Made by a program: the position numbers and the translations under genes. From contig JAJBVL010000077.1 in NCBI GenBank assembly GCA_020859845.1, positions 1 to 48,438 on the forward strand: a DNA stretch of 48,438 bases. The letters are read 5' to 3'. The notes beneath the pieces were generated by a model, which saw only the letters and a list, made by a program, of their open reading frames with translations, was not told the origin of the DNA and did not search any database. Source of the DNA: Bacteroidales bacterium. Its GTDB lineage: Bacteria; Bacteroidota; Bacteroidia; Bacteroidales; Muribaculaceae. Below, one piece after another: positions 2,825 through 29,628 of this stretch (positions are counted from its first letter, which is position 1; each line of letters starts with the position of its first letter).

Positions 2825-2957
2825 GGCGCTAATCTGTCGTTTGTTGTTGGATGAAAATTTTTTGGGTTATGAATGGCAAAATTACATATAATTTATGAAA
2901 CTGCCTAATATAATTTAGGTGATAGGGCAAAAAATGTAGTGGGAGGGGCTTCAAATG

Positions 2958-2989
2958 TTTGCTCAGTAGCAAAAGTTTTCCTACCTTTG
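2958..2989 (+). promoter_or_regulatory. Bacteroidetes-type promoter
   Basis: TTTG at 2958-2961, a 20-bp spacer, then TACCTTTG at 2982-2989. It sits about 65 bp before the ATG at 3055 and argues against the longer in-frame start at 2959, which would fall inside the promoter. Confidence 0.7.
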
Positions 2990-3054
2990 CCTCACGTCTA
3001 CCAACGTTTTTATTCATTTGTCCTTATCTACCTTATCCCCTCCCCCACCACGTT

Positions 3055-3924: not shown

Positions 3925-4157
3925 GCCTATATAAAAGAAAAGCGGGCTGTCATCTCGACAACCCGAAGTTCTTTAACCTTAAATCTAATACCATGAAAAA
4001 ACACAGTGCAAATATAGTAATTATACACTTAGAACACGCTTGGGGTAGGAGTGTTCGGGAGGCATATACGATTTAACATTCTTTAATACTCGGATAATGT
4101 CTACAATTAGTAACTTTACACTCGAAATAATATACCATCTATCACTCCCCCATACCA

Positions 4158-6330: not shown

Positions 6331-6360
6331 AACTACTTAATATCTTAACTTGACACCGCA

Positions 6361-6407
6361 TTGTAACACGATTGTCATTAAGCTGTGATATTCGTATAGT
6401 AATTTTG
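6361..6407 (+). promoter_or_regulatory. PhoB-box-like direct repeats with -7 element
   Basis: Three heptamers lie exactly 11 bp apart: TTGTAAC (6361-6367), TTGTCAT (6372-6378) and CTGTGAT (6383-6389). The spacing and the core CTGTCAT-like sequence match the direct-repeat organisation known for PhoB-family binding sites. Ten bp later a Bacteroidetes -7 element TAATTTTG (6400-6407) follows with no TTTG -33, as expected if an activator substitutes for it. The downstream product is the candidate small RNA. Which regulator binds is inference; the neighbouring response regulator is the obvious candidate. Confidence 0.55.
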
Positions 6408-6412
6408 TGGGC

Positions 6413-6580
6413 GTAAGTTAATGAAACCATTAACCTAACCTCGCTTAGGTAATAAAAGATATAGGAATCTATACCTATCCCAATCAGAAAAAAGATATTG
6501 CATAATAGTAATTAAGAGACCAATAAAACTGTAGATTCGCACGGCATGTCGGTAGACACCCCAGTGCGAATCGCTTTTTT
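6413..6580 (+). ncRNA. Candidate structured small RNA, ~168 nt
   Basis: Sequence between the kinase and enolase genes that starts 5-6 bp after a -7 element and ends in a strong intrinsic terminator, without a credible reading frame. Predicted stems: GTTAATG/CATTAAC with loop AAAC (6417-6434), CCTAA/TTAGG (6434-6449), TATAG/CTATA near 6460-6473, then the terminator hairpin 6534-6572, which has TGTC/GACA nested inside its loop. An A-rich single-stranded middle (about 6480-6530) could be a target- or protein-binding region. Enolase has its own promoter downstream, so this is not simply its leader. No known RNA family was recognised. Confidence 0.5.
6534..6580 (+). terminator. Intrinsic terminator
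   Basis: A perfect 9-bp stem GATTCGCAC/GTGCGAATC (6534-6542 with 6564-6572) encloses a 21-nt loop that can itself fold, followed by GC and six T (6575-6580). It ends the candidate small RNA and probably also read-through from the kinase gene. Confidence 0.85.
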
Positions 6581-6629
6581 ATGGGAGTTAAGGATGATAA
6601 AATGGCAAAAATTTTTTCATTGCCGATTG

Positions 6630-6660
6630 TTGTTTATGATAGGAAAAGTAGCTAACTTTG
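6630..6660 (+). promoter_or_regulatory. Enolase promoter
   Basis: TTG at 6630-6632, a 20-bp spacer, and TAACTTTG at 6653-6660, 51 bp before the enolase ATG. Confidence 0.75.
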
Positions 6661-6669
6661 CGGTGTTAG

Positions 6670-7998
<1,329 letters not shown>

Positions 7999-8043
7999 TC
8001 CTCAACGCGCTTAGATACAAGTTTGTACCATCCCACTCCAAAT

Positions 8044-8069
8044 AACGGCGCCTTTGGCGCCGTTTTTTT
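8044..8069 (+). terminator. Enolase terminator
   Basis: AACGGCGCC (8044-8052), loop TTT, GGCGCCGTT (8056-8064), then a T-run to 8069. Confidence 0.95.
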
Positions 8070-8134
8070 GTTAGGGGGGTAAACTTAGAGCATTTTTTAT
8101 ACATCGCACCTCTTGCTTTATCCCTCAATTTTAT

Positions 8135-8165
8135 TTTGTCGTATGGGAGAAGTTGTGTAAATTTG
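8135..8165 (+). promoter_or_regulatory. Promoter abutting the start codon
   Basis: TTTG (8135-8138), a 19-bp spacer, and TAAATTTG (8158-8165). The nearest sensible ATG is at 8171, so the transcript would have almost no leader. This excludes the in-frame ATG at 8153, which lies upstream of the -7 element. Confidence 0.65.
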
Positions 8166-8170
8166 TCGGT

Positions 8171-8713
8171 ATGAAAACAATTGAACGACACAATGGAAAA
8201 TCGAAGAGGATCGCTATAGGGGTGATGCTCAGCGCTGTTGTAGTAGTAGCGCTCAGCCTGGCCAGTTGCTGGGGCTCCTCCGACGCTGTGGAGGAAGACC
8301 TGCAGCAAGCCGAAATGGCCATAGCTCAGGGCGACATGCGCTCGGCAAGCAGCATCGCCAACCACATCGTGGGCGACCGCAACCTTACCGACCTTACGCC
8401 TCGCCAGTTGGGACGTCTGTCGATGGTGTATATGCAGCTTGCCGACAACACCGACCCCGCCGACTACGTGGCCAGCGCCACCGACTGCTACCGCCGCGCT
8501 TATGCTGCCGACGAGGATTCGGCCACGGCCTATTATAGCGGCGTGGCTCCCGAACTGACACGCTATGCCTTGATGCTCACGCGTATCGTCAACGGCTCCC
8601 GACGCGCTCTCACCGACAGCATCGCCGCCGGCGACACCATCTACACTCTCGACACCCCTGAAGACTCCCTCACCTTAGACCTCGATACCATCCCTAATGC
8701 TCAACATCTATAA
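8171..8713 (+). CDS. Lipoprotein with TPR-like helices
   Basis: A 180-residue envelope lipoprotein of unknown role. A basic N terminus and hydrophobic stretch end in a lipobox (LSLASC, Cys at about residue 29). The mature part is helical: segments EEDLQQAEMAIAQGDMRSA and the YRRAYAADEDSATAYY region look like degenerate tetratricopeptide repeats. The C terminus is acidic. Its last 17 bases overlap the start of the AddA-like gene, so the two are probably co-transcribed. The start at 8171 is chosen from the promoter position. Confidence 0.8.
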   Translation: MKTIERHNGKSKRIAIGVMLSAVVVVALSLASCWGSSDAVEEDLQQAEMAIAQGDMRSASSIANHIVGDRNLTDLTPRQLGRLSMVYMQLADNTDPADYVASATDCYRRAYAADEDSATAYYSGVAPELTRYALMLTRIVNGSRRALTDSIAAGDTIYTLDTPEDSLTLDLDTIPNAQHL

Positions 8714-11700
8714 GGCCTCGGCAGGCTCGGGCAAGACCTTCACCTTGACTTACGAATACCTGCGTCTGCTGCTGGGCATCACCGACCCTGAGACCCTCCG
8801 CCGCCGCCTCAATACACATCCCTCACAACCCCATCGCTCAATCCTCGCCATCACCTTTACTAATAAGGCCACCGAGGAGATGAAGCGGCGCATACTCCAC
8901 GAGCTGGCAGTGCTGGCCAAGGCCGAGCCAGGGTGGACCTCTCCAAGCCCATATCAGGAGCGGCTGATGAAGGAGCTGGAATGCACCTCCGAAGCCCTGC
9001 AAGAGGCCTCGCTCAGCGCCTTGCGCTCCCTGCTCTACGACTTCAACTTCTTTCACATAAGCACCATCGACAGCTTCTTTCAGAAGGTGCTCAAGACGTT
9101 TGCTCGCGAAGCCGAGCTGACTGGCGACTTCAACGTGGTGCTTGACGACAAAGAAATACTTCAGGAGGCCACCCACCAACTCTTCACAAGCTTCAACAAT
9201 CGCCATCTTGACAAGCCCGGAAAGTTGGCTCTCCAATGGATTACCGACTATCTGGTGGAGCAGGCCGATAATGGGAGAAGCTACTCACTCTTCAATCGCA
9301 GCTCCAACACGTTTAACACATTTATTAAGGCGATTGATGCCCTCAACAATGAGCAATTGGCCGTCCATCGCAAAGAAATTACCGAATATCTGAGCGACCC
9401 CGAGCGCATTATAGCCTTCAACGAGCAGCTCAGGGCCAAACTAAATATAAACATAAAAATAAAAGAAGCTGCAAAACGAGCTTTAGACCTTGCAAATGTT
9501 TACGACCCTGCGCCTACTCTATCAAAAAATCCAAAAACTCTCCTTAAAAAATTAGCAGAGACTGGTTTATCTAAGTGGAACCCCGCGGCAAAAACGTTTG
9601 AATCAATCTTAAACGACCCTAACAATGCTTTCAAAAAGGAGTCTTTAAAAAAGATACAGGTCCCTTTAGATTTATCAAATGCTATTTTGTATGCAATTGA
9701 AATAGCCTCCTCCAACTATAAGGAATGGTCTATAGCATACAATATAAAGAGGCAGATTTTCCAATTGGGAATAGTGGGGCGCATCTACGAAGAGGCCAAC
9801 GTGTTGTGTCAAGACCGCAACTTCCTGATGCTTAGCTCCACCAACAGCATCCTCCAACGCATCATCGGCGATGACGACGCACCATTTATCTACGAGAGAA
9901 TGGGCAACTGGTATCGCCACTTCCTCATCGACGAATTTCAAGACACTTCGGTGCTTCAATGGGCTAACCTCCGCCCCCTCGTCAACGAGAGCCTGGCCAC
10001 CGAGCAAGACAACCTCATCATTGGCGACGAAAAGCAGTGTATCTATCGCTTTCGCAACAGCGACTACTCACTGCTGCAACACCAGGTGGAAGAACAATAT
10101 CAAGGGCGAGTGAAGGTACATGGACAAGAGCCTTCGAGCAACACCAACTGGCGAAGCAGCGCCACGGTAGTCGACTTCAACAACCGTCTCTTCGAAGCCA
10201 TCATATCAGCCCAAGACCTCACCGACGCCAGCGACATCTACGCCAACGTGAAGCAGCAAGTGTCGCCCAAAGGGCAGCGCAAGCCGGGCATTGTGAAGAT
10301 ACGCGCATGTAATATCGCAGCCAAAGATGACGATGGCAGCTCCCTGGATGGGATGGTGGAGGATATACGCCGCCAGCTGGAAAGCGGATATCGCCCATGC
10401 GACATCGCTATCTTGACCTCGACCAAGGCTGACGGACAAACATGTATGAACTATCTGCTGCAAGCAAGAGCCAACGACCCCACCTTCCCTCCTTTTAATA
10501 TCGTAAGCGAAGAGATGATGGTCTTGGAGAGTTCGCCGGCTGTGAAACTCATTCTTAGTGTGCTCCGCTCAATGGCTTTCCCAGTCTCAGAGCCAGAAGA
10601 TCCAGAAGATTCAACCCCCGACGAAGCGCCTACCCATCGTCGGCGCCAACGCAAGAGCCGCCGACAGACGATGGAGATGCTCAACCGCTATGAATACCTC
10701 CTCAATCAAGGGGAGCAGCCCCAAGAAGCTCTGCGCCGCGCTATCGACTCCTCATGCCAAGTGTTTACCACCGACGACGTAGCCAAAGGCGGAGTGCTGG
10801 GCCTCTCTTCGCTCATAGAGCATATCATCCACCTCTTTATCTCCAAGGAACAGCGCCAGAGCAATTGCGCCTTCCTCTCGGCCTTCATGGATGTGATAGT
10901 CGACTACACCTCCCGTGGCCCCAACGACCTTTACAGCTTCTTAACCTGGTGGGATGTAAACAAAGACAATCTAAAGGTAAGCTCTCCCAACGACGAACAA
11001 GCCATCAGCATCATGACCATCCATAAGTCGAAAGGATTGGAGTTTCCCTGCGTCCATCTCCCTATCATCAAGGGAGGGCCCACCGACAATCTTTACAAAA
11101 CGCTCAAGTGGTTTAAGATGGCACCTTTGGATGGTATAGACCCAGCTATAACTCCTCCCTTCCTACCCTTGAAGTTGGAGAAATGGATGGTGGACACCCC
11201 CTTTGAGAAGCAATACCTGGAGGAACAGGACGCCACCATCATTGATGGGCTCAACAAGCTTTACGTGGGTTTCACTCGCGCCATCAACGAGCTTTCTATA
11301 CAGATTTATACGGCCAATAAGAAAGAAAGCTACCCTACGATGATTTCTGAAGCCGTCAAGCAAGCTTTTGGCCACGACCTCGGCCCCGACTCGCCCTTAG
11401 AGCTCGGCGCCCCTACCCGCCCCATGAAGGAAGAAAAGAAGCCTCGCACGGCCTTGGAGCCTTCCTGCTCAGAGGGCATTGACAGCTATCAGCCAATGAT
11501 ACGCAGCGACATCTGGGATGGCACCACTATCACCGACGTGGATGGCTACAATCTGAGCCGACCCCAAGACCGTGGGCTTATGCTCCACGAGGTGATGAGC
11601 CATATAGCTACGATTGTTGACGTAGACCGAGCTTTTAAGATCGTAGAACGCACATGGCACAACAGCGAGGCCGACACCAGCGCTCTCAAGGCGTGGCTTA

Positions 11701-18374: not shown

Positions 18375-19130
18375 TTAGGAAAGGATTACTCTACGGCGCT
18401 GAGCGTCAAAGGTGACGTTGGTGCTGGTGAATAGGCGATCTATGTGGCCGCTCCCTATCATTTTAGGCGTAGGGAGATAATAGAGATGGGGAGAATCTAT
18501 CAAGGCAATGTCATCGGCCAACTCAAGAGCTATATCAAGCTCGTGGGTGGAGAACACGATAGTCTTCTGCTGCTGATGAGCCAACTGAGCCAGAAGAAGA
18601 CATAATTCATAACGGTTGGGGAGGTCGAGAAAGCTTGTGGGCTCATCGAGCAAGATAATGGGGGTGTCCTGAGCCAATGCACGAGCTATCATCACGCGCT
18701 GACATTCGCCATCGCTCATGCGGTCCATCGGTCGATTAATATAGCTTTCCATCCCCACCAGCCGCAAGCTCTCCTCCACTATTCTCTCATCCTCCGCCGA
18801 TAGTCGGCCTATCCAGTCGGTGTAAGGAGCGCGCCCCATAGCCACCACGTCGTGACACCGCAGATTCTCCACTCTCACCCTCTCGGTGTTGACAAAGGCC
18901 AGGAAGCGTGCACGCTCCTGAGGGGTCAGCGCCAAGATATTTTTGCCGTCAACCACCACTTCTCCACCCAATGGTTTGCTCAGCCCCGCCACGGCTCTGA
19001 GGAGAGTCGACTTTCCTGCTCCATTTCTACCCAGAAGGGCTATGAGCCGCGAGCGAACAAACTCAGCCGAGGCATCCTCAATCAAGAAGCGTCGGCCATA
19101 ACCCACAGAGAGATGATGTAGACTAATCAT
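18375..19130 (-). CDS. ABC transporter ATPase (BtuD/FecE-like)
   Basis: A 251-residue nucleotide-binding subunit for a siderophore/cobalamin-type importer. Walker A GRNGAGKST is at 34-42 and Walker B ends in ILLDEPTSFLD. The signature is MSDGECQRV instead of the canonical LSGGQ, and the switch His lies in FSTHELD. It follows the permease gene by 10 bp and closes this minus-strand run. Assignment to vitamin B12 rests on the riboswitch-controlled B12 receptor operon 7 kb upstream on the same strand; iron chelates remain possible. Confidence 0.92.
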   Translation of the reverse strand: MISLHHLSVGYGRRFLIEDASAEFVRSRLIALLGRNGAGKSTLLRAVAGLSKPLGGEVVVDGKNILALTPQERARFLAFVNTERVRVENLRCHDVVAMGRAPYTDWIGRLSAEDERIVEESLRLVGMESYINRPMDRMSDGECQRVMIARALAQDTPIILLDEPTSFLDLPNRYELCLLLAQLAHQQQKTIVFSTHELDIALELADDIALIDSPHLYYLPTPKMIGSGHIDRLFTSTNVTFDAQRRRVILS

Positions 19131-19140
19131 AGGCGATATC

Positions 19141-20154
19141 TTAACTTCGATATTTGAGCACTACCCATATCACGATAGGGATACCGAGCAGCGCCGTGAT
19201 AGTGTTGATGGGGAGTAAAAGCCATTTGGCTACAACGTCGCAGAGAAGCATCGTGGCGGCTCCTACAAGCACTACGGCCGGCATCAAGTAGCGATGGTCG
19301 GAATTGCTTATCAACGCTCGCGCCACATGGGGCATAGCCAATCCTATAAAACCTATTGGGCCACAGAAAGCAGTGACACCTCCCGCCAGAAGGGTTGTTG
19401 AGAGGAAGATGAGCGAGCGACTACGGCGCATATTTAAGCCCATCGACACGGCATACTGCTCGCCGAGGAGCAGGAGATTGAGAGGCTTGATGGTGATGAT
19501 GGCCAGATAGAGGCCCACAGCCACGATGATGGTCATAATCCATAGCTGAGTGGGGGTGACATCGCCCAGCGAGCCCATGGTCCACACCACATAGCTCTTC
19601 AAGGCATCCTCCTTGCTGAGATACTGGAGTATCTGGACGATGGCGCCTACTCCCGACGAAAACATCATACCCAGGATGAGGATTACCATGATATCCTTGA
19701 TGCGAGCGCTGAAAGCCGCTATCAAGACCAGGACAGCACCCGAGCCCACCAAGGCCGCTCCGATAATGCCAAGCGAAGATATCATTGACGACGCGCCGAT
19801 ACCCAGCAATGGTCCTCCAAGCACCGCCAACGCTACGCCCAGACTCGCTCCCGAGGAAATGCCAAGCACATAGGGGCCAGCCAGCGGATTGCGAAACACT
19901 GTCTGCATCTGCAGACCGCTCACCGAGAGAGCCACCCCAACCAAGATAGCCACCACCGCCTTGAGCAAGCGAATATGGCGCACAATCTTGATGGTGGCAG
20001 CCGAAGCCTCATCGCTCCCCCACAACCCTTGCCACACCTCGCGAGCCGACAATCCCACACTCCCCACCATCATATCGACGATGAAGAGCGCCACAATAAT
20101 GGCCAGCAGAAGGATATAGAGGGACCAACTTTTTGCCACAGCTATTTGTAACAA
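19141..20154 (-). CDS. FecCD-family permease (BtuC-like)
   Basis: Inner-membrane permease, about 337 residues with roughly ten helices. Family marks: MVGSVGLSAREVW, a QTVFRNPLAGPYVLGISSGA motif typical of BtuC/FhuB/FecD, and GPIGFIGLAMPHVAR near the C terminus. No ATG opens the frame at the expected place: candidates are TTG (20152-20154), which sits in a hairpin, or GTG (20137-20139), giving VAKSWSLYILLL. I give the longer form. No periplasmic binding protein (BtuF) gene is present in the window. Confidence 0.88.
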   Translation of the reverse strand: MLQIAVAKSWSLYILLLAIIVALFIVDMMVGSVGLSAREVWQGLWGSDEASAATIKIVRHIRLLKAVVAILVGVALSVSGLQMQTVFRNPLAGPYVLGISSGASLGVALAVLGGPLLGIGASSMISSLGIIGAALVGSGAVLVLIAAFSARIKDIMVILILGMMFSSGVGAIVQILQYLSKEDALKSYVVWTMGSLGDVTPTQLWIMTIIVAVGLYLAIITIKPLNLLLLGEQYAVSMGLNMRRSRSLIFLSTTLLAGGVTAFCGPIGFIGLAMPHVARALISNSDHRYLMPAVVLVGAATMLLCDVVAKWLLLPINTITALLGIPIVIWVVLKYRS

Positions 20155-20239: not shown

Positions 20240-21022
20240 TTAATTGGTGGTTGTTGTCTCCACTTTTTCGATGTAGGATGTGCTGACGTAGCCTTCTTGG
20301 CCGTTGTAGTGTACGAGGGCAAAGCCTTCGGAGTCGGCATAGACTTCGATCTCGTCGCCTTGCTTGTAGGTGCCGATCACGGAAGCGTTGGAGGATGGCA
20401 TAGCGCGGATGTTGAGCACACGAGCCGTGACGCGATAGCGCGTCGTGGGGTTGACCACAGTCTCTATCACTGTCGGTTCATCGTTGGCATGCTTCATCCA
20501 GTTGTAGCCCATCCATCCTCCCAGTCCAAATACGATGAGCAGAAAGATAGTGGCGTTGTAGAAGCAGAAACGAAGCGCAAACACCAGAATGGCCACGATA
20601 TAAGCAATGACGATAGTGCCGATATAAGCTATCACGCCACCAATTATGGCCAGCACTGTATGGCCTACTCCTGTCCAGAAGCTATCGCAAAAGCCTGAAA
20701 TGACATATATCAGCAGACCTATTAGGGCTGCACCCATCACGATGTAGGTGGTCCATTCTACGAGTTTCTCTACGCTGTCGCCGATCCAGTCGCCGATGCC
20801 ACTTATGAAGTCGTTAAAGCGGCCCCACAAGCCGCGACTGCGGCGCGACGAGGATGTGCGGGAAGATGGATAGGTAGTTGTTGTAGTACGAGTTGTAGAG
20901 CCAGCAAACGAGGAGAGATTGCCCAGATTGAGACGCCCTGTGCGAGGGTCAAAACCTGGGGGCAACACCTTGTTCCACCGGCCAGTGGCGGGGTCAAACC
21001 CCGGGGGTAGTGTATTAGCCAT
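20240..21022 (-). CDS. Membrane protein with C-terminal SH3 domain
   Basis: A 260-residue last gene of the ubiquitin-like cassette; function unknown. The N terminus carries two copies of LPPGFDPxTGR (residues 5-15 and 20-30), then a Thr/Ser/Arg-rich linker. Three or more hydrophobic segments follow between about 90 and 180. A bacterial SH3 (SH3b) domain occupies about 190-255 (RVTARVLNIRAMPSSNASVIG, YKQGDEIEVYADSEGFALVHYNGQEGYVSTSYIE). Whether the SH3 domain faces the periplasm or cytosol is open. Its start overlaps the AAA+ gene end by 8 bp. The TGRW element echoes TGKW in the 62-residue protein upstream. Confidence 0.85.
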   Translation of the reverse strand: MANTLPPGFDPATGRWNKVLPPGFDPRTGRLNLGNLSSFAGSTTRTTTTTYPSSRTSSSRRSRGLWGRFNDFISGIGDWIGDSVEKLVEWTTYIVMGAALIGLLIYVISGFCDSFWTGVGHTVLAIIGGVIAYIGTIVIAYIVAILVFALRFCFYNATIFLLIVFGLGGWMGYNWMKHANDEPTVIETVVNPTTRYRVTARVLNIRAMPSSNASVIGTYKQGDEIEVYADSEGFALVHYNGQEGYVSTSYIEKVETTTTN

Positions 21023-23282
21023 TTGTTACGTTTCTAAACATTACTCGCCCACCGAAGACAAAAGCTTCAATAGGCTGCTGTTTCGACACCTCATTGTTGA
21101 CGATAGCCATGCTAAGGGCATCGATGACATGGTTGTTGACCACGCGCTTTACGGGACGGCCGCCATACTCTGGCTGATAGCCATTGGCCTCCACGAAGTC
21201 GAGGATTGAGGTGTCGTAAGTCAAGTCGATACCGTTCTTCTTCAGGCGCTTGGCGGCGCTCTTGAGCTGGAGCTCGCCAATCTTGCGGATATCCTGGCGC
21301 GTCAAGGGCAGGAACATCACTGTCTTGTCGATACGGTTGATAAACTCGGGAGCCACGCGCTGCTTGAGCTGCTGCATCACAGCGTCGGTGGCTTGCGCTA
21401 TGCGGTCGGGGGTAGGTTCCTGGCCTGTGAGATAGCGCATGATGGCTGGCTGACCCACATTGGAGGTCATGACGATAATCGTGTTTTTGAAATCCACTAC
21501 TCGCCCTTGTCCGTCGGTCATACGGCCATCGTCGAGCACCTGTAGCAGCGTCTCAAACACCTTGGGGTGAGCCTTCTCAAACTCGTCGAAGAGCACTATG
21601 CTGTAAGGCTTATGACGCACAGCCTCCGTCAGCTGTCCACCCTGCTCATAACCTATATAGCCGGGAGGCGCTCCGAAAAGGCGACTGACGGTGTGCTCCT
21701 GCTGATACTCGCTCATGTCGATGCGCACGATGGCATCGCGCGAGTGGAAGAGGAATTCGGCCAGTGCTTTACATACCTCTGTCTTGCCCACGCCTGTGGT
21801 GCCCAAGAAGAGGAAGGAGCCGATGGGACGCGAAGCGTCGTTGAAGCCCATGCGGCTACGGCGTATGGCATTGGCCACCGCGCTGATGGCCTGGTCTTGC
21901 CCTATCACCTGCTCATGGAGATGCTCTTCGATATGGCGGAGGCGCTCGGTGTCTTCCTCGTCCATGCTTTGCATAGGTATACCGGTCCAGCGGGTGACGA
22001 TGTCCATCACGTCCTTGTCCTCCACGGTCTGTCGCGAGGTCTCCATGTGTACGTAAGCGGCAGCCTCGTCGAGCAAGTCGATAGCCTTGTCGGGGAGGCG
22101 ACGGTCGGGGATAAAGCGATGGCTGAGGTTGACAGCGAGCTCGGCTACACTGTCGGGGATTGTCACCTTATGGTGTTGCTCGAAGCGCTTCTTGACAATC
22201 TTCAACACCTCAGCAGCATCCTCGGGCTTTAGCTCGTCGACAGTCACCTTCTGGAATCGCCGCTCAAAGGCCTTGTCTTTCTCGATATGCTGAGTGTATT
22301 CGTCGGTAGTGGTGGCACCAAGGATTTTTATGGAGCCACGCGCCATCTCGGGCTTTAGGAGGTTGGCAATGGGGTTGTTGGCGCCAGCATGAGAGCTGAC
22401 GAGAGTATGTATCTCATCAATAAAAAGCACCACCGAGGTATCCTGCTTCAGTTCGTCGACCATCTTGCGCATCACCTCTTCGGCGTTTCCTATCGAGTCG
22501 AGTACACCGAGGTCGAGCTGATAGATTTTAAGATTCTTGAGATCGTCGGGCACCTCACCGTTGAGCAACTGGCAAGCCAACCCCTCTACGATGGCCGTCT
22601 TGCCTGTGCCGGGAGCACCTACCAGAATAGGATTGTTTTTGGTGCTCAGGCTGAGAATCTGAAGCACACGCTTTATCTCAGCGTCGCGACCGATGGCTCG
22701 ATGGAGCTTGCCCTCGCGTGCCTGTTCTATCCAGTTGGTGCAGAATTGCTCCAGCGTGGGGCAGTTGTTGGCGCGCGTAGACTGCGGTTCGCGAGGGCCG
22801 CTTTGGCCCATGCCTCCTCCCTGACGCATCTCAATGGCCGTCTCCATGGCTCGCGTGGTGATGCCTACGCTCTCGCCAAGCATCTTCATTGGGCCTTGCA
22901 CCAAGAAAAGCGATGCCAATAGCGCGCCGTGAGGAAACCTCAAAGGAGCATTCTGAGGCATGCTTCCTTCTATATTCATGGCGAGGTTGATGGCTTGTCC
23001 GAGGCTCGACGACATTGGGAGCTGGCGGCTATGACCACCACGAGGCATATTGTTGAGAATCTGCCCTACAGCTCCGTAGAATGCTCCATGGCCAGGAAAG
23101 GAGGAGCGTCCATCGTCGCGAAAGGTGGTCACCGTCAAGAAGTCTTCTACCTCAGGAGCGTAACGCTGCTGCAAAACGATAAACAGGAGTGGGGTATCTA
23201 TCTCAGCCAAGCCCATCTGCTGGGCAAACTGTCCAGCGTCGTTGAGAAGAGTCGACAGCTCTTGTTGGAGTGAAGATGCCAT
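21015..23282 (-). CDS. ClpA/B-like double AAA+ unfoldase
   Basis: A 755-residue Hsp100-type ATPase. A divergent Clp N domain (1-150) and a Gly-rich linker precede NBD1, with Walker A GAPGTGKT (222-229), Walker B LFIDE (286-290) and Arg finger ERRFQ (about 340). NBD2 has Walker A GTTGVGKT (494-501), pore loop GYIGYEQGG (541-549), Walker B VLFDE (563-567), sensor TSNVG and FINRID. The ClpB coiled-coil middle domain is missing (NBD1 runs into RWTGIP at 431-436), and no IGL/IGF ClpP-binding loop follows TSNVG. It therefore looks like a stand-alone remodelling ATPase. It lies 37 bp after the E1-like gene. Confidence 0.93.
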
Positions 23283-23319
23283 AAGAGATAATAAAGATAT
23301 GGGAGGGGGAATATATATG

Positions 23320-24588
23320 TTAAAGCTTATCTAAGTCGATCGAAGTGTCAATCTTGATTGACGAGGCTTCGGGGCCAAACTCCTTGGCGAAGTCTTGCCC
23401 GAGGTCGAGCGAAGTGGCGTTGCCACACTGTGCGCAGCCGCCATCACGCTCCATCTCTACCCCATACCAGCGCATAATCGTGGGCATGTGGCCTGGATTG
23501 GCAAACGAGGCCCAGTTGGTATAGTTGCGCTCGCGGCGGTTGGCCCACATATAGTAGGGGTATATGAGCTCTTCTTCCAGCGACTGAATACCTGAGGCTG
23601 CGCCACGCGAGAGCTCCACCAGAGCCAGTTTCACCATCATGTTGGTCATAGGCTCTATGTCGGCGCTAAGACCCACTTGCACCATGGCATCGGCATCCTC
23701 AGCCGAGGTATAAGCTGCTATCTGGCCATTGGCGCGGGCAGAGGCCTCATCGGTGATTTCCTCCATCGTGGCATCATACCATCCATTGCCCAGCAGACAG
23801 CAGTAGCAGGGACCTCCGGGCCGATAGTGGAACACGTCGCCCCCTTCGGCGCGAGTGATGGCTCGTCCATAGATAGCGGGGGTGGCAGTGGCCACGGCTG
23901 CCGAGTTGATGTTAAATCGCGAGCGATTGTTGTCGGTAGCGCAGATTACCAGGTCGGCTTTGGCCGTCTCTTGGAGGAGGAGTTGGGGATCGTCGTTGAT
24001 GTTGATGGGAAACTTCTCCACCTTGGCATAAGGATTCTTGCCAAGGATGGCTTCCTCTATGACGTCGGTCTTCAGTCGCCCGAGGTCGCGTGTAGTCGAT
24101 GTGTGGCGGGCAAGGTTATGGAGCTCTACTCGGTCAAAGTCCATGATGGCAAAATGTCCCACGCCGGCTTTGGCCAGCTCGATGGCTATCTGGGAGCCAA
24201 AGCTACCGAGACCCACTATCATCACGCGCTTGCCTTCAAGGATATTTAGCTCCAGGAGACCCTTGTTGCGCGAGTAAAGGTCTTCCTTGGCCGGGATAAT
24301 CTCAGGCGCAAGCCATGCCTGCGACTGTGGATGCCACACCTGAGCCTCGCCCTCGGCGTTGACCTTCACCAGTATGCGCGAAGGGTCGTAAGGCTCATCC
24401 AGCTGCTCCTTGGTGAAGGTGACTGTCTGCTGGTGGCCGAAGCTATGGGTGAGGGGGTGGAAGTGGAGATGCCACACGCCCTCCCCTTCCCATTCATATC
24501 CAATGCCCTCGGTGGTCTGCACACGAGGATTGGTGGCGAAGCGCTTCAGCTCCTCGCCATCAATATAGAAGACAGGCTTTGGTGTCAT
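23320..24588 (-). CDS. E1/ThiF-like adenylating enzyme
   Basis: A 422-residue member of the ubiquitin-activating E1/ThiF/MoeB superfamily, predicted to adenylate a protein C terminus. The first ~100 residues are a beta-rich domain I cannot assign. The Rossmann adenylation domain has MIVGLGSFGSQIA (123-135), D150 and the DFDRVELHNLARH segment (150-162), K173, and CATDNNRSRFNIN (216-228). Paired Cys motifs CYCC (261-264) and CAQC (385-388) look like a split zinc site, as in ThiF/MoeB. Its ATG overlaps the stop of the 62-residue gene by 4 bases (ATGA). Confidence 0.92.
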   Translation of the reverse strand: MTPKPVFYIDGEELKRFATNPRVQTTEGIGYEWEGEGVWHLHFHPLTHSFGHQQTVTFTKEQLDEPYDPSRILVKVNAEGEAQVWHPQSQAWLAPEIIPAKEDLYSRNKGLLELNILEGKRVMIVGLGSFGSQIAIELAKAGVGHFAIMDFDRVELHNLARHTSTTRDLGRLKTDVIEEAILGKNPYAKVEKFPININDDPQLLLQETAKADLVICATDNNRSRFNINSAAVATATPAIYGRAITRAEGGDVFHYRPGGPCYCCLLGNGWYDATMEEITDEASARANGQIAAYTSAEDADAMVQVGLSADIEPMTNMMVKLALVELSRGAASGIQSLEEELIYPYYMWANRRERNYTNWASFANPGHMPTIMRWYGVEMERDGGCAQCGNATSLDLGQDFAKEFGPEASSIKIDTSIDLDKL

Positions 24589-24773
24589 GATGCAAAGCCT
24601 TCGCGGGTCATCTCATTGACCACGAGACCCTCGCGTGGAGGAGCCTGTGTGGCAGGCACCACTTGCCATTTGCCGGTCTCGGTGTTGTATATCATGTTGT
24701 TGTTCTTCGAGCCTTGGCCGTCGTTGCGTACGGCTTCGGCCATTTGGTCGAGGTTGATATTTTCAAAAGCCAT
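24585..24773 (-). CDS. Small 62-residue protein, possible modifier
   Basis: Not a recognised family. It is hydrophilic, with no signal peptide, membrane segment or Cys. It contains NTETGKWQVVP (30-40), related to the TGRW repeat of the SH3 membrane protein, and two REG triplets (47-49 and 57-59). There is no C-terminal Gly-Gly, but Gly59 is followed by only three residues (FAS), so trimming by the adjacent JAMM peptidase could expose it (speculation). The 4-base overlap with the E1-like gene supports it being real and functionally tied to it. It may be a modifier, an adaptor or a substrate. Confidence 0.75.
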   Translation of the reverse strand: MAFENINLDQMAEAVRNDGQGSKNNNMIYNTETGKWQVVPATQAPPREGLVVNEMTREGFAS

Positions 24774-24817
24774 AATGGGGATAATTTAAGATGAAGAATG
24801 ATTGGGGGAATTGGGGA

Positions 24818-24837
24818 CCCGGCAAATAATTGCCGGG
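24818..24837 (-). other. Intercistronic hairpin
   Basis: Perfect 8-bp stem CCCGGCAA/TTGCCGGG with a 4-nt loop, in the 98-bp gap between the E2-like and 62-residue genes. No T-run follows in the direction of transcription, so it is more likely an mRNA processing or stability element than a terminator. Confidence 0.6.
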
Positions 24838-24871
24838 CACGGAAGCGCCCTTATGGAACGGGGAGCGGAAG

Positions 24872-25306
24872 TTAGGGGTTGGTTTGGGTGTTGAGGTAAT
24901 AGCTCATGGTCTTGCCGGTGCGCAAGTGGGCGCGATACATCTCTATCCAGAGGCGACATTTCATGTAGACCTTCCAGAGAGTAACGTCGGGAGTCCAACA
25001 TGAGTCGTTGTAGTGGCAGAGCTGGGTCCAGCCGTTCCAGGGGGTCAGGGTGTGATTGTAGTGGGAGGCGGAGTTCATGGGCTTGCCGTCCTTGGTGTAA
25101 AGCATCTGCTTCACGTAGACCTTGGGCTTGTTTTCGGGAAACATAGAGAGGTCGAAGTAGAGCAGATAGGCAGCGCCATCGTTGGCCACCACTGCACATT
25201 CCATATAAGGCTGCGAGGTGCCTATCTGGCAAAATCGATACATGTTTTGAGGCAAGTAATACTGCATCACTTGCTTCTCAAGAAGGGCACGTTGTGAGGT
25301 TATCAT
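24872..25306 (-). CDS. E2-like (UBC-fold) protein
   Basis: A 144-residue protein with the layout of a ubiquitin-conjugating enzyme. A strand pair ends in YLLYFDLSMFPENKPKVYV (the FP..P pattern at 49-65). A His-containing segment SHYNH (81-85) follows. The candidate catalytic Cys97 is in WTQLCHYN, then comes CWTPDVTLWKV (103-113, compare W-P..tl in E2s) and C-terminal helices to HLRTGKT. Assignment is by pattern, with no close homologue recalled. The gene starts within an ATGA overlap with the JAMM gene stop, so the two are translated together. Confidence 0.78.
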   Translation of the reverse strand: MITSQRALLEKQVMQYYLPQNMYRFCQIGTSQPYMECAVVANDGAAYLLYFDLSMFPENKPKVYVKQMLYTKDGKPMNSASHYNHTLTPWNGWTQLCHYNDSCWTPDVTLWKVYMKCRLWIEMYRAHLRTGKTMSYYLNTQTNP

Positions 25307-26367
25307 AGATCAAAAAGGGAGGGTGTATAGGGGGTGTTGGGATTGTTGGGGTTGTTGGGGTTGTTGTCGTGAGTATGGTCTTCGAAGGCAGCCCACCATT
25401 GGTCGAAGGCGAAGGGGATGTCATGGTCTTGACATTCAAGACTCCAAGCAGGCGTGGGCATCATCGTCCCCTGACGCAGAAATTGAGGTGGCTCCTGAGG
25501 GAAGCGGGAAGGGAACCTCACTTCAAAAGCGCCATTGTCGATGTTGAGATTCACCATGCCAGTCTCGTCCATCTGGGTCTGCACACTCAGACCAGCATAC
25601 CGCTCCTTGACGGTGGCTACTATATGCTTTAGGCGGTCGATGTTGCCCGTGCGTTTCAGCCAGTTGACGCCGCCAAGCATAGGCCCTTGCGGCGCAGGTT
25701 GAGAGTTTGTCGCTGCATGCTCGCTCACCAAGCGCTGCAGGCCATGGCGCGGCTCGCGTGTGCGTGGATGGATAAGCACCTGAGCCAATTCACGATCGAT
25801 AATGGGCCGGAATGGACTTTCCATATCCTTCACTTTCCATAAGGCCTCGCAATAGTGATCAGGATCGCTCTCATGGAAGGTGTAGGGATTGATGGCGCTA
25901 TAGCCATCGCGATAGTTGCCTATGCAGAGCAGGAGGTGGCGCAGTGGCACACGCTCCAGGGCGTGAAACATCGTCGAAGCATCATGGCCACTTGGTCGAG
26001 CCAAGCCCAGCTGATGATGGGAATGCCATTCACCTATGTGTTGAAGGCCATAGCGGTCGAGCAGCAGATTGCCCACGAGGTCGAGGTAGCGCAAATCCTG
26101 ATTGAAGAAGGCTTGCTCATGATTGGCATCGCGTCCAGGACCTATGACATAGAGCACCACCGGCGCTCCTTGATTGGTCCAAAAGCCAAAGAGCTGGCCT
26201 CCGGTCTCGATATTGGGATAATCTCGGATGCAGCGCGAGAGATAGTCGAGCTCGCTACGATAGATTATAGCCAACGGAGAAGGATGCCTCTCATCAATTA
26301 GCCCGGTTGGTGGAAGTGGGGTGGCAAATGAGGACTCACTTCGGCGAAAGGGGTTGGGGAAGCTCAT
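25303..26367 (-). CDS. JAMM/JAB peptidase fused to E2-like domain
   Basis: A 354-residue first gene of the cassette. The N-terminal domain is a JAB1/MPN+ metallo-isopeptidase with Glu54 in ETGGQLFG, zinc ligands His115 and His117 (EWHSHH), and Ser126 and Asp129 (PSGHD). The His-Asp spacing is one residue longer than the classic HxHx10D. Residues about 232-330 look like a non-catalytic UBC/RWD-type fold (FEVRFPSRFPQEPP, 281-294) with no Cys in the expected place. The tail (333-348) is Asn/Pro repeats. It is predicted to cleave isopeptide bonds or process a modifier. A promoter lies at 26419-26450. Confidence 0.88.
   Translation of the reverse strand: MSFPNPFRRSESSFATPLPPTGLIDERHPSPLAIIYRSELDYLSRCIRDYPNIETGGQLFGFWTNQGAPVVLYVIGPGRDANHEQAFFNQDLRYLDLVGNLLLDRYGLQHIGEWHSHHQLGLARPSGHDASTMFHALERVPLRHLLLCIGNYRDGYSAINPYTFHESDPDHYCEALWKVKDMESPFRPIIDRELAQVLIHPRTREPRHGLQRLVSEHAATNSQPAPQGPMLGGVNWLKRTGNIDRLKHIVATVKERYAGLSVQTQMDETGMVNLNIDNGAFEVRFPSRFPQEPPQFLRQGTMMPTPAWSLECQDHDIPFAFDQWWAAFEDHTHDNNPNNPNNPNTPYTPSLFDL
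25335..25370 (-). repeat. 9-bp coding repeat (Asn-Asn-Pro)
   Basis: On the coding strand AACAACCCC repeats about three to four times and encodes the Asn-Asn-Pro tail of the JAMM protein. Units are in frame, so copy-number change would alter tail length without frameshift. Confidence 0.8.
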
Positions 26368-26530: not shown

Positions 26531-28567
26531 TCAAAATTTAGGCGTGATGCCTATAAAAAACTCGAAGTTGATGCCCGGCATAGGACGAGAGAGTACCGAG
26601 AGATAATCTTCGTTGAAGAGATTATTGACGGCGAGCTTCAGGTCGAGGTTGACCCAGCGGGTATACACCACGCGCCCCAAGGAGACGTTGCTCATATAAT
26701 ATTTAGGCAGCCGGCCCGAGAGGGTGGTCTCGTTGCTACTCATGGTGAAGCGCTCGGAGTAGAAAGCCCACTGGTAAAGGAAAGTCCACGACCGCCACGA
26801 CAAGCGGCCAGTGGCTGTGGCAGAATGACGGGGGACATACGGCAATTGCTTACCCACCGACTTGTCGGCCACCGACATCGGCTCGCCACGATTGATGGAG
26901 GGTGTCCAAGAGTAGGTGGCGTTAAGGTCAAGCAGCCAGTCGGGGTGGAATTGCCACGACAGGGAGCTTTTGGCCTCCAGGCCGTAGGCATGGACCTTCT
27001 TGACATTGCGCGGCGAGAAGAAACCTTTGGGGGTAGGGAGCCATATTATCCAGTCGTCGATGTAGGAGTCAAACCACGTCAAGCCACCGCTCCATACCCA
27101 CTTCCCCGCCCTGCCGGTGGAGAACGAGGCGCCGACATCGTAGGTGAAGCCACTCTCGTTCTTCAAGTCGGGGTTGCCACCGGGGAGAAAATAGAGGTCG
27201 TTGAGCGAGGGAAACTTGTAGTTGCGAGATATGGAAGCGCGTGCCGTGATATTTCCCCGCCGGCTTATGACCCCATCCACAAAGAAGGCAGGGATGATAG
27301 GGGCCCAGCGGTCGCCCATCATGTCCTCGCGTAGCACCACCGACAAGCCCAGCCGAGGCGTTGGTTGCCACTTGGCGGAGACGGCCCCCGACATCTCAGC
27401 GCGCTTCTTGTCGTAGCCCACCGTGGCATTGTCGCCATCCTGCAGCACGATGTTTTTGTCGTCTGACTTCACCAAGTGTTGGTATAGAGCCAAGTTGGCA
27501 GTAAACATCCATTGACGGTTGGCGGAGTAGAGCTGGCCTTCGCCTTGTCCGTAGAAGGTATTCACTCGAGAGCGCGAGCGTGTCATGGTCTGCATACCAC
27601 CAGCGCCACCCACGTCGCGCTTATAGTCGTAGGCCATCCACGTATGGATATAGCCAGCCTTCACATTTGTGCTCCAGCTGTAGCGAGTGTGGCCCCACGA
27701 AAGGATGGCGCGGAGAGTGTTTTCGCGTTGCCGGTTGTCAAACGACGTGTAGTCGGCATAGTCGGTGGTAAGCAACGGCAACTCGCGATTGCTATGGATA
27801 AACCACGCACTGAGGCCCAGGCGGTCGCCTCGCAGCGTGTTGTAGTACACCTCTTGGAGCAGATGAAGGTCGCGGAAAGCGCCGCTCTTATTTCGCTCCT
27901 TAGGGTAATATTGGCCTATGATCTGATGGTTGTCGTCGTAGATGTTGAGCTTCTTGTCGTGGTTGGTATATTTGTAGTCGTTGGGTGAGGAAGAGTAGAC
28001 AGCACGCGTAGAGGATGTCCAATGCTCCGAGCCATAACTCACGCGGAGAAACTCGTCAAACGTCTTAAACGACCCGATGCCTTGCACATACTGCATGTTC
28101 AAGCCCTCCTCCGCCTCGGGGAGAGTGGCGAGCCTTACCAATCCTCCAAGACCTCCGCCAGCCTCGTTGACCGAGGATGTGCCGTGGAGCAATGAGGCTT
28201 GATCGATAAAGTAGGCCGGGATAGTGGAGAAGTCGGTAGAGCCCAGCATGGGGTTGTTGATCTTCATGCCGTTCCATGTCACTTGTGTATGGCTCGGCGA
28301 AGTGCCACGAAACGACACGGTGGATAGCGTGGCTCTACCGTAGCTCTTCACGAAGATAGGCGTGTTGAAGGTCAAGATATCGGCCATCGACAACGCAATG
28401 TTTTCCTTGAGGGTGGCAGAGTCGAGCGCGGTCTTCTGCACCCCTATATCGCGCATAGGGCGCTTTCCCACCACAGTCACCTGAGGCAACTGTCGATGCT
28501 GAGCCCAAGCCATCGATGGGAGACAGAGCGATAATATTAGCAGGCGTAGTAGAGCTTTCATTTCCAA
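26531..28567 (-). CDS. TonB-dependent receptor (BtuB-like)
   Basis: A 678-residue outer-membrane receptor. Signal peptide (ends SMAWA-Q, about residue 22), TonB-box-like QVTVVGKRP, plug domain to about 150 (NTPIFVKSYGRATLSTVSFRG; HTQVTWNGMKINNP; GGLGGLVRLAT), then a beta-barrel ending in an aromatic residue (GITPKF). Substrate cobalamin is inferred from the riboswitch and the BtuG-like partner encoded just upstream. Its start overlaps the propeller gene by 10 bp. Confidence 0.92.
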   Translation of the reverse strand: MEMKALLRLLILSLCLPSMAWAQHRQLPQVTVVGKRPMRDIGVQKTALDSATLKENIALSMADILTFNTPIFVKSYGRATLSTVSFRGTSPSHTQVTWNGMKINNPMLGSTDFSTIPAYFIDQASLLHGTSSVNEAGGGLGGLVRLATLPEAEEGLNMQYVQGIGSFKTFDEFLRVSYGSEHWTSSTRAVYSSSPNDYKYTNHDKKLNIYDDNHQIIGQYYPKERNKSGAFRDLHLLQEVYYNTLRGDRLGLSAWFIHSNRELPLLTTDYADYTSFDNRQRENTLRAILSWGHTRYSWSTNVKAGYIHTWMAYDYKRDVGGAGGMQTMTRSRSRVNTFYGQGEGQLYSANRQWMFTANLALYQHLVKSDDKNIVLQDGDNATVGYDKKRAEMSGAVSAKWQPTPRLGLSVVLREDMMGDRWAPIIPAFFVDGVISRRGNITARASISRNYKFPSLNDLYFLPGGNPDLKNESGFTYDVGASFSTGRAGKWVWSGGLTWFDSYIDDWIIWLPTPKGFFSPRNVKKVHAYGLEAKSSLSWQFHPDWLLDLNATYSWTPSINRGEPMSVADKSVGKQLPYVPRHSATATGRLSWRSWTFLYQWAFYSERFTMSSNETTLSGRLPKYYMSNVSLGRVVYTRWVNLDLKLAVNNLFNEDYLSVLSRPMPGINFEFFIGITPKF

Positions 28568-29628
28568 GCAAAAGCGCCGGGAATCACCCCGACATAAAAC
28601 GAATCAATTAGCTGCCCATCCTCGCTATAGCGATATATCATGCCCGGTTGCTGATAGTCGATGGCATCGGCCACATAGACATCACCGTTGAAGGGGCTTA
28701 CTGTCAAGCCATAATAAATCGTGGATTGATACTCCAAGAAAGGCTTCACTGGCAGGCGCGAGGCCATCACGTCCATGCGCCAGATGTCGTTGTTGATCCA
28801 ATAGAGCATGGTAGCATCGCCATTATGCTGAAGCTCGGTGGGCGATTCGCCGAGGGCAAACTTCCACGACTGCTCAACGGAGAATGTCGCGGCATCTATC
28901 TTCCAAAGCGTGGGCGCCTCGTAGCCGTAGGGAGAGCCTTCATAGCCGCCGTCGCTCATCACCCATAGTTTGCCATAGGCATCAAGCACTATCGAGTTGG
29001 GCTGTAGGCCTACTGTGAGCTGGTCTACTATCTCATCGGTGGTGGAGTCAATCTTGAGCACTCGGTTTTGGTAGCTCCAGCAGGTGACATAGACGTAGCG
29101 CCCATATTGGACCATCTGCTCCGTGGAGCCGCTTTCCATGGTCATGTCGGGGACGGTGATGTAGCCCGTCACTTGATACGTCTGAGGATTGACAACAAAT
29201 ATACGATTGTCCCAGAGCTGGGTGACGTAGGCTTTGGTATCGCTCAGGAAGTGGATATAGCGAGGCGATGCGAGATTCTCTATACGCCCCACTTCACGAA
29301 AGGTAGTGGCATCGATGGCAAAGATTACATGGCTATTGTTGACCACAATCCATCCCACGCCCTTACGCACCACCATCGACTGGGCCACATCGCCAAGCTT
29401 GTAGCCGTTGGCGCGGAGAAACACTTCGTTTTCCACCTCCATGGTCGTGGGGTCGTAATAGCTCAGGGTGGCGTTGCCATACTGGAAATTGCCCTCGTTG
29501 GTGATGAAGAGGCCTTCGCCTGTGGCGTCAAAGTCCTCCATGTCCACATAGTCCCACTTCATACACCCTCCCAATCCTGCCATCAGGAGGGTCAGAGCTA
29601 ATAATATGCCCAGCCGTCTACTCTTCAT
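28558..29628 (-). CDS. BtuG-like surface beta-propeller lipoprotein
   Basis: A 356-residue lipoprotein (lipobox LGGC at about residue 22) with YncE/DUF5074-type propeller blades: GLFITNEGNFQYGNATLSYYD, IFVVNPQTYQVTGYITVPDM, NSIVLDAYGKLWVMSDGG and the closing VGVIPGAFAWK. In Bacteroides, BtuG proteins of this kind bind vitamin B12 at the cell surface with picomolar-range affinity and cap BtuB. The gene order here (PKD protein, propeller, receptor) and the overlaps on both sides (11 and 10 bp) match that use. Confidence 0.9.
   Translation of the reverse strand: MKSRRLGILLALTLLMAGLGGCMKWDYVDMEDFDATGEGLFITNEGNFQYGNATLSYYDPTTMEVENEVFLRANGYKLGDVAQSMVVRKGVGWIVVNNSHVIFAIDATTFREVGRIENLASPRYIHFLSDTKAYVTQLWDNRIFVVNPQTYQVTGYITVPDMTMESGSTEQMVQYGRYVYVTCWSYQNRVLKIDSTTDEIVDQLTVGLQPNSIVLDAYGKLWVMSDGGYEGSPYGYEAPTLWKIDAATFSVEQSWKFALGESPTELQHNGDATMLYWINNDIWRMDVMASRLPVKPFLEYQSTIYYGLTVSPFNGDVYVADAIDYQQPGMIYRYSEDGQLIDSFYVGVIPGAFAWK

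Follow-up and report, generated by a model that had tools for sequence, protein, structure and literature searches.

A minus-strand operon of a Muribaculaceae genome with E1, E2-like and JAMM proteins, a 62-residue candidate modifier and a predicted hairpin motif common to this candidate and its neighbours

A six-gene operon on contig JAJBVL010000077.1 of a Bacteroidales bacterium of the family Muribaculaceae (assembly GCA_020859845.1; 2.9 Mb in 112 contigs) encodes a JAMM/JAB peptidase, an E2-like protein, a 62-residue protein (hereafter, p62), an E1/ThiF-type adenylating enzyme, a double AAA+ motor of the ClpA/B type and a membrane protein with an SH3b domain. The window referred to throughout is the whole stretch from position 1 to position 48,438 of this contig. 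Judged from gene content in related loci, the constant core is four genes, namely the JAMM peptidase, the E2-like protein, p62 (~60 residues) and E1, and the Clp motor with the SH3 membrane protein is one cassette among several that follow it. The operon may encode an accessory, immune-type protein-conjugation system that uses a hairpin as an address, and not a pathway of envelope remodelling, a reading in which our belief and our doubt are about equal.

An earlier sequence-only reading had described six minus-strand genes here, and all six open reading frames (ORFs) were recovered at the positions given in Table 1. The JAB and E2-like genes overlap by 4 bp, as do p62 and E1, and the Clp and SH3 genes overlap by 8 bp; gaps of 98 bp and 37 bp separate the E2-like gene from p62 and E1 from Clp, respectively. 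Three features described below go beyond that reading: the hairpin common to p62 and its partners, the conserved tail of p62 and the finding that no candidate catalytic Cys of E1 is fully conserved.

Table 1. Positions of the operon genes and of selected sites within them (window coordinates)
Feature	Position	Strand	Basis
JAMM/JAB peptidase with C-terminal E2-like domain, 354 aa	25303..26367	-	Prok-JAB and PADLOC JAB matches, motif residues
E2-like protein, 144 aa, presumed catalytic Cys97	24872..25306	-	Conserved Cys/His/His/Trp
Cys97 codon of E2-like gene	25016..25018	-	Computed from ORF position
p62, 62-residue presumed modifier/tag: helix, hairpin, tail GFAS	24585..24773	-	Family member between E2 and E1
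p62 hairpin motif YNTETGKW, residues 29-36	24666..24689	-	Alignment; hairpin inferred from sequence
E1/ThiF-type adenylating enzyme, 422 aa	23320..24588	-	ThiF match, PDB profile matches
Double AAA+ ClpA/B-type motor, 755 aa	21015..23282	-	AAA_2 and companion domains
Membrane SH3b protein, 260 aa, N-terminal hairpins	20240..21022	-	SH3_3 match, hydropathy
First hairpin motif of SH3 protein, FDPATGRW, residues 9-16	20975..20998	-	Motif pattern
Second hairpin motif of SH3 protein, FDPRTGRL, residues 24-31	20930..20953	-	By eye

Components of the core and of the Clp-SH3 cassette

An alignment of E1 was scanned against the genome collection and returned 71 loci. The 27 more distant ThiF relatives (L059, L060 and L062-L086) were excluded before counting, and the counts below cover the window and 44 loci (L016-L058 and L061), 45 in total, including near-copies such as L050 and L051, whose E1s are 99.3% identical. 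The order JAB-E2-E1 on one strand is kept in 45/45 loci (in L055 the JAB gene lies beyond the contig edge), with a p62-family sequence between E2 and E1 in every one; since the order is kept throughout, the clustering of the core genes is not due to chance. Downstream of the core, 28 loci have Clp and 20 have SH3, the two occurring together in 12; in nine loci neither was found, although contig ends cut some of them short (e.g. L038). The earlier expectation that the genes stay together is therefore upheld for the core but not for the six-gene set. On the E1 tree (44 rows) the cassette types undergo 8 changes versus a shuffled mean of 23.4, and as read from this tree they are mostly inherited along with the core, with occasional change.

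The distribution of the system is sporadic. E1 was found at E <= 1e-30 in seven of 149 genomes of the same family, in six of 30 genera, and at E <= 1e-60 in three of 295 genomes of the order (the window genome being included in both counts). The host labels are mostly Bacteroidota, together with two Fibrobacter, one Treponema, one Desulfovibrionaceae and one 'Clostridium' metagenome-assembled genome (MAG) whose label is doubtful (L054). The E1 of the Desulfovibrionaceae MAG lies in two ORFs (L045:9127-10404), reflecting either a broken gene or an assembly error.

The E1 enzyme matches ThiF (6.6e-33), and the nearest solved relatives returned by a profile search of the PDB are MoeB (3.2e-25), ThiF and MccB, of which the last is a peptide-adenylating enzyme. 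Its N-terminal ~100 residues gave no family match in the library scan. The nucleotide-site residues Gly126, Gly128, Gly131, Asp152, Asn158, Arg161, Lys173 and Asp219 are identical in all 44 aligned E1s, from which the split L045 sequence was excluded. Cys261 and Cys264 are also present in 44/44, and Cys385 and Cys388 in 43/44 (L038 is cut by the contig end); by position, we take these to be the zinc pairs known from MoeB and ThiF. At Cys216 and in the Thr315 column, Cys occupies 68% of rows, and beyond the presumed zinc pairs no fully conserved candidate catalytic Cys is left in the aligned E1s. Because such a residue is lacking, it is plausible that the E2 is loaded directly from the adenylate.

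The JAMM protein matches the PADLOC JAB model (6.5e-12) and, slightly below the cut-off of 25 bits, Prok-JAB (4.4e-5, 23.8 bits). The residues of its E...HxH...SxxD motif (Glu54, His115, His117, Ser126 and Asp129) are identical in 43/43 aligned proteins, L040 (partial) and L055 (absent) being excluded. These family matches and invariant motifs bear out the JAMM peptidase and the E1 with intact adenylation motifs of the sequence-only reading. When the C-terminal part of the JAB protein was compared with the PDB by profile, 18 matches with E of 1 or less were returned: 15 are E2 enzymes by name, most of them UBE2L3 (E 0.15-0.60), two are L3A2-1 entries and one is a peptidase (0.041). Residues 226-328 gave an hhalign value of 36% against the E2 family of the locus, and residues 329-354 a value of 1.1%.

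In the E2-like protein, the presumed active-site Cys was confirmed as residue 97, and Cys97, His98, His85 and Trp104 are found in 43/43 aligned members of the family (L017 and L055 excluded), with Pro106 in 37/43; the E2-type active site proposed earlier is thus retained. E2 enzymes have the pattern H..., [IL]C, W-x-P, and the conserved residues appear close to it. Neither the E2-like protein nor p62 gave a family match above cut-off or a PADLOC match in the library scans of the six proteins. Single members of the E2-like family match RWD (3/43, best 0.0035), Prok-E2_E (two, 0.0096) and UQ_con (two, 0.11) weakly, and 13/43 match DUF7665 (best 0.001), against which the family reaches an hhalign value of 52%, the DUF7665 side being a single sequence. 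Within the ORF set, the E2 profile recovers L059:2886-3356 (3e-5) and L064:8330-9616 (5e-5). The latter, a distant homologue, falls short of the curated cut-offs in its matches to E2-ntca (2.3e-5) and UQ_con (5.8e-5); the former matches UQ_con at 0.02. The family profile found no E2 in the PDB.

As a distant relative, locus L059 itself (Chloroflexi bacterium 54-19, 2886-10936) encodes E2-like, JAB and E1 proteins; two of its other proteins have, by eye, E2-like looking segments together with membrane helices.

The Clp protein matches AAA_2 (1.5e-64) as well as AAA, AAA_lid_9 and ClpB_D2-small. In 27/27 aligned homologues (partial L030 excluded), each ring has kept its Walker A and Walker B motifs, and the D2 pore loop GY[VI]G[YHF] is likewise intact. 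In all 27 the D1 pore-loop Tyr is lost, and a ClpP-type loop was not seen by eye in the aligned region. Because the D2 loop is kept, the D1 Tyr lost and the ClpP-type loop unseen, the motor is suggested to be an unfoldase that pulls via D2 without feeding ClpP. The SH3 protein matches SH3_3 (5.2e-13) and has about three hydrophobic segments (94-112, 130-148 and 149-167) between its N-terminal hairpins and the SH3b domain. A Clp-type double AAA+ motor and a membrane SH3b protein, as described from the letters alone, are accordingly supported by family matches.

That the operon Clp might be the housekeeping ClpB was considered and rejected, as the genome has a separate ClpB; the operon gene is the third Clp locus of the genome, besides ClpB and another Clp-type protein, and scores 763 bits against the ClpB model, for which the cut-off is 1232. 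Downstream of the SH3 gene in L020, L047, L050 and L051 there are, by eye, runs of similar ~450-residue genes (with starts such as ...IFPIPVG...) or, in L047, a radical-SAM-like CxxxCxxC.

The p62 tail and a predicted hairpin common to p62 and cassette proteins

The p62 sequences were gathered by position between E2 and E1. In these sequences a likely helix is followed by a segment such as LVFNPETGEFEQV and, after it, by a tail such as VVTDMTKDGFAA. The motif G-[FY]-A is at or close to the end in 33 of 37 main-clade loci, and in 23 of the 33 free-ended main-clade loci p62 ends in Ala; the window p62 ends GFAS. Among the 29 free-ended p62 sequences with G-[FY]-A, the motif is followed by no residue in 15, by one in 13 and by five in one, a pattern that looks like trimming. 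L039 was counted by its first module only, and its ORF has a second module ending FGG. In L020, p62 forms the end of a 162-residue ORF. Fusion in frame to E1 is seen in four of the 45 loci (L029, L030, L032 and L061), with an internal ATG possible in all except L032.

A profile search of the PDB returned no whole-length relative of p62. The sole match with E < 0.01 is SAKe6BC (2.9e-4), which we take to be a designed Kelch-type propeller and which covers the hairpin only, and in Pfam the hairpin region matches Kelch_1 at 0.029. Assignment of this region as a hairpin fits both weak matches.

By eye, two distant E2-like proteins (L062:922-1722 and L063:846-1676) have two tandem N-terminal helix-hairpin-like repeats and lie beside JAB, E1 and SH3 membrane genes. 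Their repeats are possibly a p62 array fused to E2.

Many cassette proteins open with a p62-like segment, for example MAIKYNERTGEFEEV in L023, MAYRYDEKTGEF in L029, MSDMNDLVYNPVTGMFE in L025, MALVYNEETGNF in L036 and the SH3 protein of the window. The motif common to these and p62 is predicted to be a hairpin. When residues 1-80 of each protein were considered, 24 of 122 downstream non-Clp genes, from 19 of the 45 loci, matched the pattern [FY][ND]xx[TS]Gx[FWL], as did 17 of 105 when the SH3 family was left out; none of 404 control ORFs outside the operon in the same loci matched it, the ORF length limit for these controls being 80 aa versus 60 aa. A P-loop protein of L043 (13932-15113) starts with MPSIYNPTTGTI, a hairpin missed by the strict pattern because of an Ile.

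The hairpins of p62 and of its partner appear to vary together. The comparison used the final four residues of each 8-mer in 20 loci whose p62-partner pair was aligned by eye; it omitted L046 and L020 because of a length change, L042, L058 and L061 as near-copies, the SH3-only clade, which could not be aligned, and any locus where no partner was recognised. The two hairpins agree more within loci than across them (p = 5e-5), and the agreement persists in a permutation stratified within cassette type (p = 2e-4). In L034 and L057, p62 has M-[ST]-F in place of TG and the SH3 protein has M-S-F too; the two loci are not independent, as their E1s are 67.5% identical. Since loci in which Clp was not found (L025, L046 and L055) also have hairpin proteins, the docking site or reader of the hairpin would be located in the core and not in Clp.

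A possible conjugation pathway and its alternatives

Relatives of the core are found beside known defence genes. Downstream of the core, L026 encodes two hairpin proteins, a membrane protein of the DUF4407 family and a pair of dynamins identified by PADLOC as LeoA (2e-123) and LeoBC (3.5e-88), and L028 has dynamin-type GTPases with weaker Leo matches (1.4e-13 and 1.3e-8). A Bradyrhizobium plasmid classed as conjugative (NZ_CP088281.1, L160) has JAB-E2-E1 relatives followed by genes of the cyclic-oligonucleotide-based anti-phage signalling system (CBASS), namely a CD-NTase and a Cap4-SAVED nuclease, and then by a TIR gene. The E1 of this plasmid carries, by eye, a p62-like N-terminus, and the annotated part of the CD-NTase ends FGA. 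Because Leo dynamins and CBASS genes adjoin relatives of the core and the system is sporadically spread, a role in immunity or stress conflict is likelier than envelope upkeep.

An N-terminal-like stretch of the plasmid CD-NTase (9916-10787) is in another frame than the annotated gene, which may be a frameshift or an annotation matter. More widely, 84 plasmid records match the window E1, none of them covering 80% and the best, from Bradyrhizobium, at 36.5%; a search with the Bradyrhizobium E1 at E <= 1e-30 gave two records, both from Bradyrhizobium barranii. Four phage records match the window E1 weakly. An unverified faecal phage scaffold (MT836827.1, L161) encodes at 569-1729 a ThiF-type E1 of 387 aa from stop to stop, which is 33.6% identical to the window E1 over half its length.

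In the proposed pathway, E1 would adenylate the p62 tail (...G-F-A) and the acyl group would pass, perhaps straight from the adenylate, to Cys97 of the E2-like protein, which would attach p62 to proteins. The JAMM enzyme would trim p62 and remove it again from proteins. The hairpin could act as an address recognised by one core enzyme, and since the cassette proteins bear the same address, it would direct them, whether substrates or effectors, to where conjugation takes place. The Clp motor of the window might then pull p62-marked or hairpin-bearing proteins, above all the membrane SH3 protein, and the whole could conceivably fire during phage infection or other stress. Put in general terms, p62 would be a minimal peptide modifier of non-beta-grasp type, and the 8-12 residue hairpin a coevolving address that wires any carrier (membrane SH3 proteins, small membrane proteins, a beta-sandwich-like protein beside the DUF4407/dynamin set, a P-loop protein) into the E1-E2-JAMM core, with Clp, where present, acting on the result. 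We advance this general form tentatively, as falling a little short of an even chance.

Were the proposal correct, ubiquitin-like conjugation would need no ubiquitin fold, some 60 residues with a hairpin and a tail being enough. The lesson of cGAS conjugation in CBASS would be extended, and a portable address would allow effectors to be connected to a conjugation core. Bacteria would also have a tag-and-unfold pathway (E1, E2, JAMM and Clp) that dispenses with a proteasome and for which a handful of genes suffices for testing.

Several observations weigh against this proposal. No Pfam or PDB match marks p62 as ubiquitin-like in the profile searches. G-F-A is absent from all eight loci of the SH3-only clade, which have other aromatic tails such as KDYYM, and the p62-E1 fusions, with the p62-like N-terminus of the L160 E1, mean that a free tail is not always encoded. 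For the E2-like family, hhalign gave 1.2% against canonical UBC, 0.5% against UQ_con, 2.5% against Prok-E2_B and 3.3% against Prok-E2_E. In a control with 16 segments of other families at the locus, 14 reached at most 0.44%, the two exceptions being JAB segments, and the values for known E2s scarcely exceed those of unrelated segments. A UBC fold for the E2-like protein is suggested indirectly, by motifs and a chain of weak sub-cut-off matches. The enrichment of the hairpin is treated as descriptive, because the pattern was written after the sequences had been read and the length limit of the controls was higher. It is the SH3 clade that accounts for the covariation (10 loci, p = 4.5e-4), which is weak in the other 10 loci (p = 0.07, or 0.11 by identity). 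As cassette type tracks the E1 tree, free swapping of cassettes is not demonstrated. Finally, no relative was found in viral contigs and no phage resistance is known for the system.

The best-surviving alternative, which we nevertheless regard as rather unlikely, is that p62 is a regulatory or docking subunit of E1 or E2 and that another protein of the locus is conjugated, as cGAS is in type II CBASS, the hairpin serving to recruit substrates. In its favour are the p62-E1 fusions, the p62-like N-terminus of the Bradyrhizobium E1 and the helix-hairpin-like repeats seen by eye on the E2 of L062 and L063. The FGA end of the Bradyrhizobium CD-NTase resembles the tails of conjugated cGAS (PMC10097602). 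However, the p62 tail is conserved to or near the very end in 33 of 37 main-clade loci, as a conjugated C terminus would be, and the 24 hairpin proteins have by eye no common C terminus.

The role proposed in the sequence-only reading, a quality-control or envelope-maintenance pathway in which envelope proteins are marked by conjugation and then pulled out by the Clp motor, seems improbable. It accords with the intact ATPase motifs in both Clp rings, with the SH3b membrane protein in 20/45 loci and with the strongly hydrophobic segment flagged in nine of the 24 hairpin proteins, but an upkeep function is not easily reconciled with a sporadic distribution, with the 17 of 45 loci in which Clp was not found (some being cut by contig ends) or with relatives beside Leo-type dynamins and CBASS genes, and as the main role it is not sustained. 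Least probable of all is that the likeness of the hairpins reflects shared ancestry of a short homotypic self-binding module, as proposed for EAD, with JAB, E2 and E1 acting on p62 alone: Aravind and colleagues report for EAD that copies in adjacent genes tend to be closest to each other, and they propose homotypic bridging (PMC7159879); the pattern here is similar, but a motif of ~8-12 residues would be short for a self-binding domain.

Relation to known systems and genomic setting

Within the general class of prokaryotic E1-E2-JAB systems, the nucleotide-site residues of E1 and the JAMM metal motif are both present in the window operon. In place of a beta-grasp, ubiquitin-like modifier ending in Gly, p62 ends GFAS and appears not to be of that type, having no ubiquitin-like match. 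As the enzymes belong and p62 departs from the beta-grasp type as far as can be tested, the system is placed in this class as a variant.

Type II CBASS (the E1-E2 fusion Cap2, the JAB protein Cap3 and cGAS/CD-NTase) has the same set of E1, E2 and JAB. It conjugates cGAS, which lacks a beta-grasp fold, via a C-terminal Gly or Ala, and Cap3 cleaves a tandem cGAS fusion after the C terminus of the first copy (PMC10097602). By comparison, Ala is the last residue of 23/33 free-ended main-clade p62 sequences, the window has GFA-Ser, and the SH3-only clade has it in 0/8 loci. By analogy, cGAS conjugation is the best precedent found for the short p62 tail and the p62-E1 fusions. The L160 relative of the core adjoins a CD-NTase and a Cap4-SAVED gene, whereas no CD-NTase match was found among the six window genes. 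Furthermore, E1 and E2 are separate ORFs in 45/45 loci and not fused as in Cap2, the JAB protein here bears an E2-like domain, and p62 and the hairpin address are extra.

The Bil (BilA-D) and Bub systems also combine E1, E2, a protease and a small modifier in one operon (PMC11354881, PMC13373217, PMC12687455), Bub being compared in outline only. BilA has two ubiquitin-like domains (PMC11354881), unlike the 62-residue p62 with no ubiquitin-like match. The closest idea in the searchable literature is that of the FtsH-ternary systems, in which a ubiquitin-like protein (Ubl) coupled to EAD1 and an EAD1 effector are proposed to meet (Kaur et al. 2020; PMC7159879). The likeness is one of principle: modifier and effector share a small adaptor, and an AAA+ chaperone is present. 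Those systems link the Ubl to an E2 domain and a RING-type E3 and also contain vWA-MoxR components (PMC7159879), whereas in the window a short hairpin is the common element and Clp is the motor. The same adaptor on a core component and on an effector, as in EAD-coupled conflict systems, is thus found here as a principle only; no EAD family was among the Pfam matches of 35 p62 members, although which EAD models that Pfam set includes was not checked.

The PRTRC and 6d-type operons (Ub-like, JAB, E1 and E2; Iyer et al. 2006) likewise bring JAB, E1 and E2 genes together, with an example from Bacteroides (PMC1779556). The 6d E2 is described there as lacking the classical His (PMC1779556), whereas His85 is present in 43/43 members here. 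The PRTRC_ThiF model gave 21.7 bits versus a cut-off of 144.75, and for 6A-MBL the cap2_3 model gave 26.4 bits (JAB) and 62.2 bits (E1) versus a cut-off of 320. With the ClpB and ClpA unfoldases, the operon motor shares two AAA+ rings and a ClpB-type D2 small domain, and it differs from them in the lost D1 pore-loop Tyr, in its score far under the ClpB cut-off and in its co-occurrence with a ClpB of the genome's own. The gene set is not named in the titles or abstract openings of the literature searched, a corpus from which the primary Bub papers, preprints and most of the subscription literature are absent. As far as we know, both the proposed hairpin address and the Clp cassette are novel.

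The window operon is flanked by genes for a TonB receptor and a FecCD permease, one on either side. Twenty TonB-receptor loci including the window, each with at most 1.5 kb of flank, were compared in search of an empty site, which makes for a weak comparison. FecCD was not found within the fetched flank (<=1.5 kb) at the remaining 18 of the 20 loci, and the distance from receptor to FecCD is 1.19 kb in L154 (genome G038) versus 6.4 kb in the window. It is possible that the operon was inserted between the receptor and permease genes. The flanks (18375-20154 and 26531-29628) encode a DUF5074 beta-propeller, the TonB receptor, the FecCD permease and an ABC ATPase, and resemble a locus for uptake of metal complexes or cobalamin.

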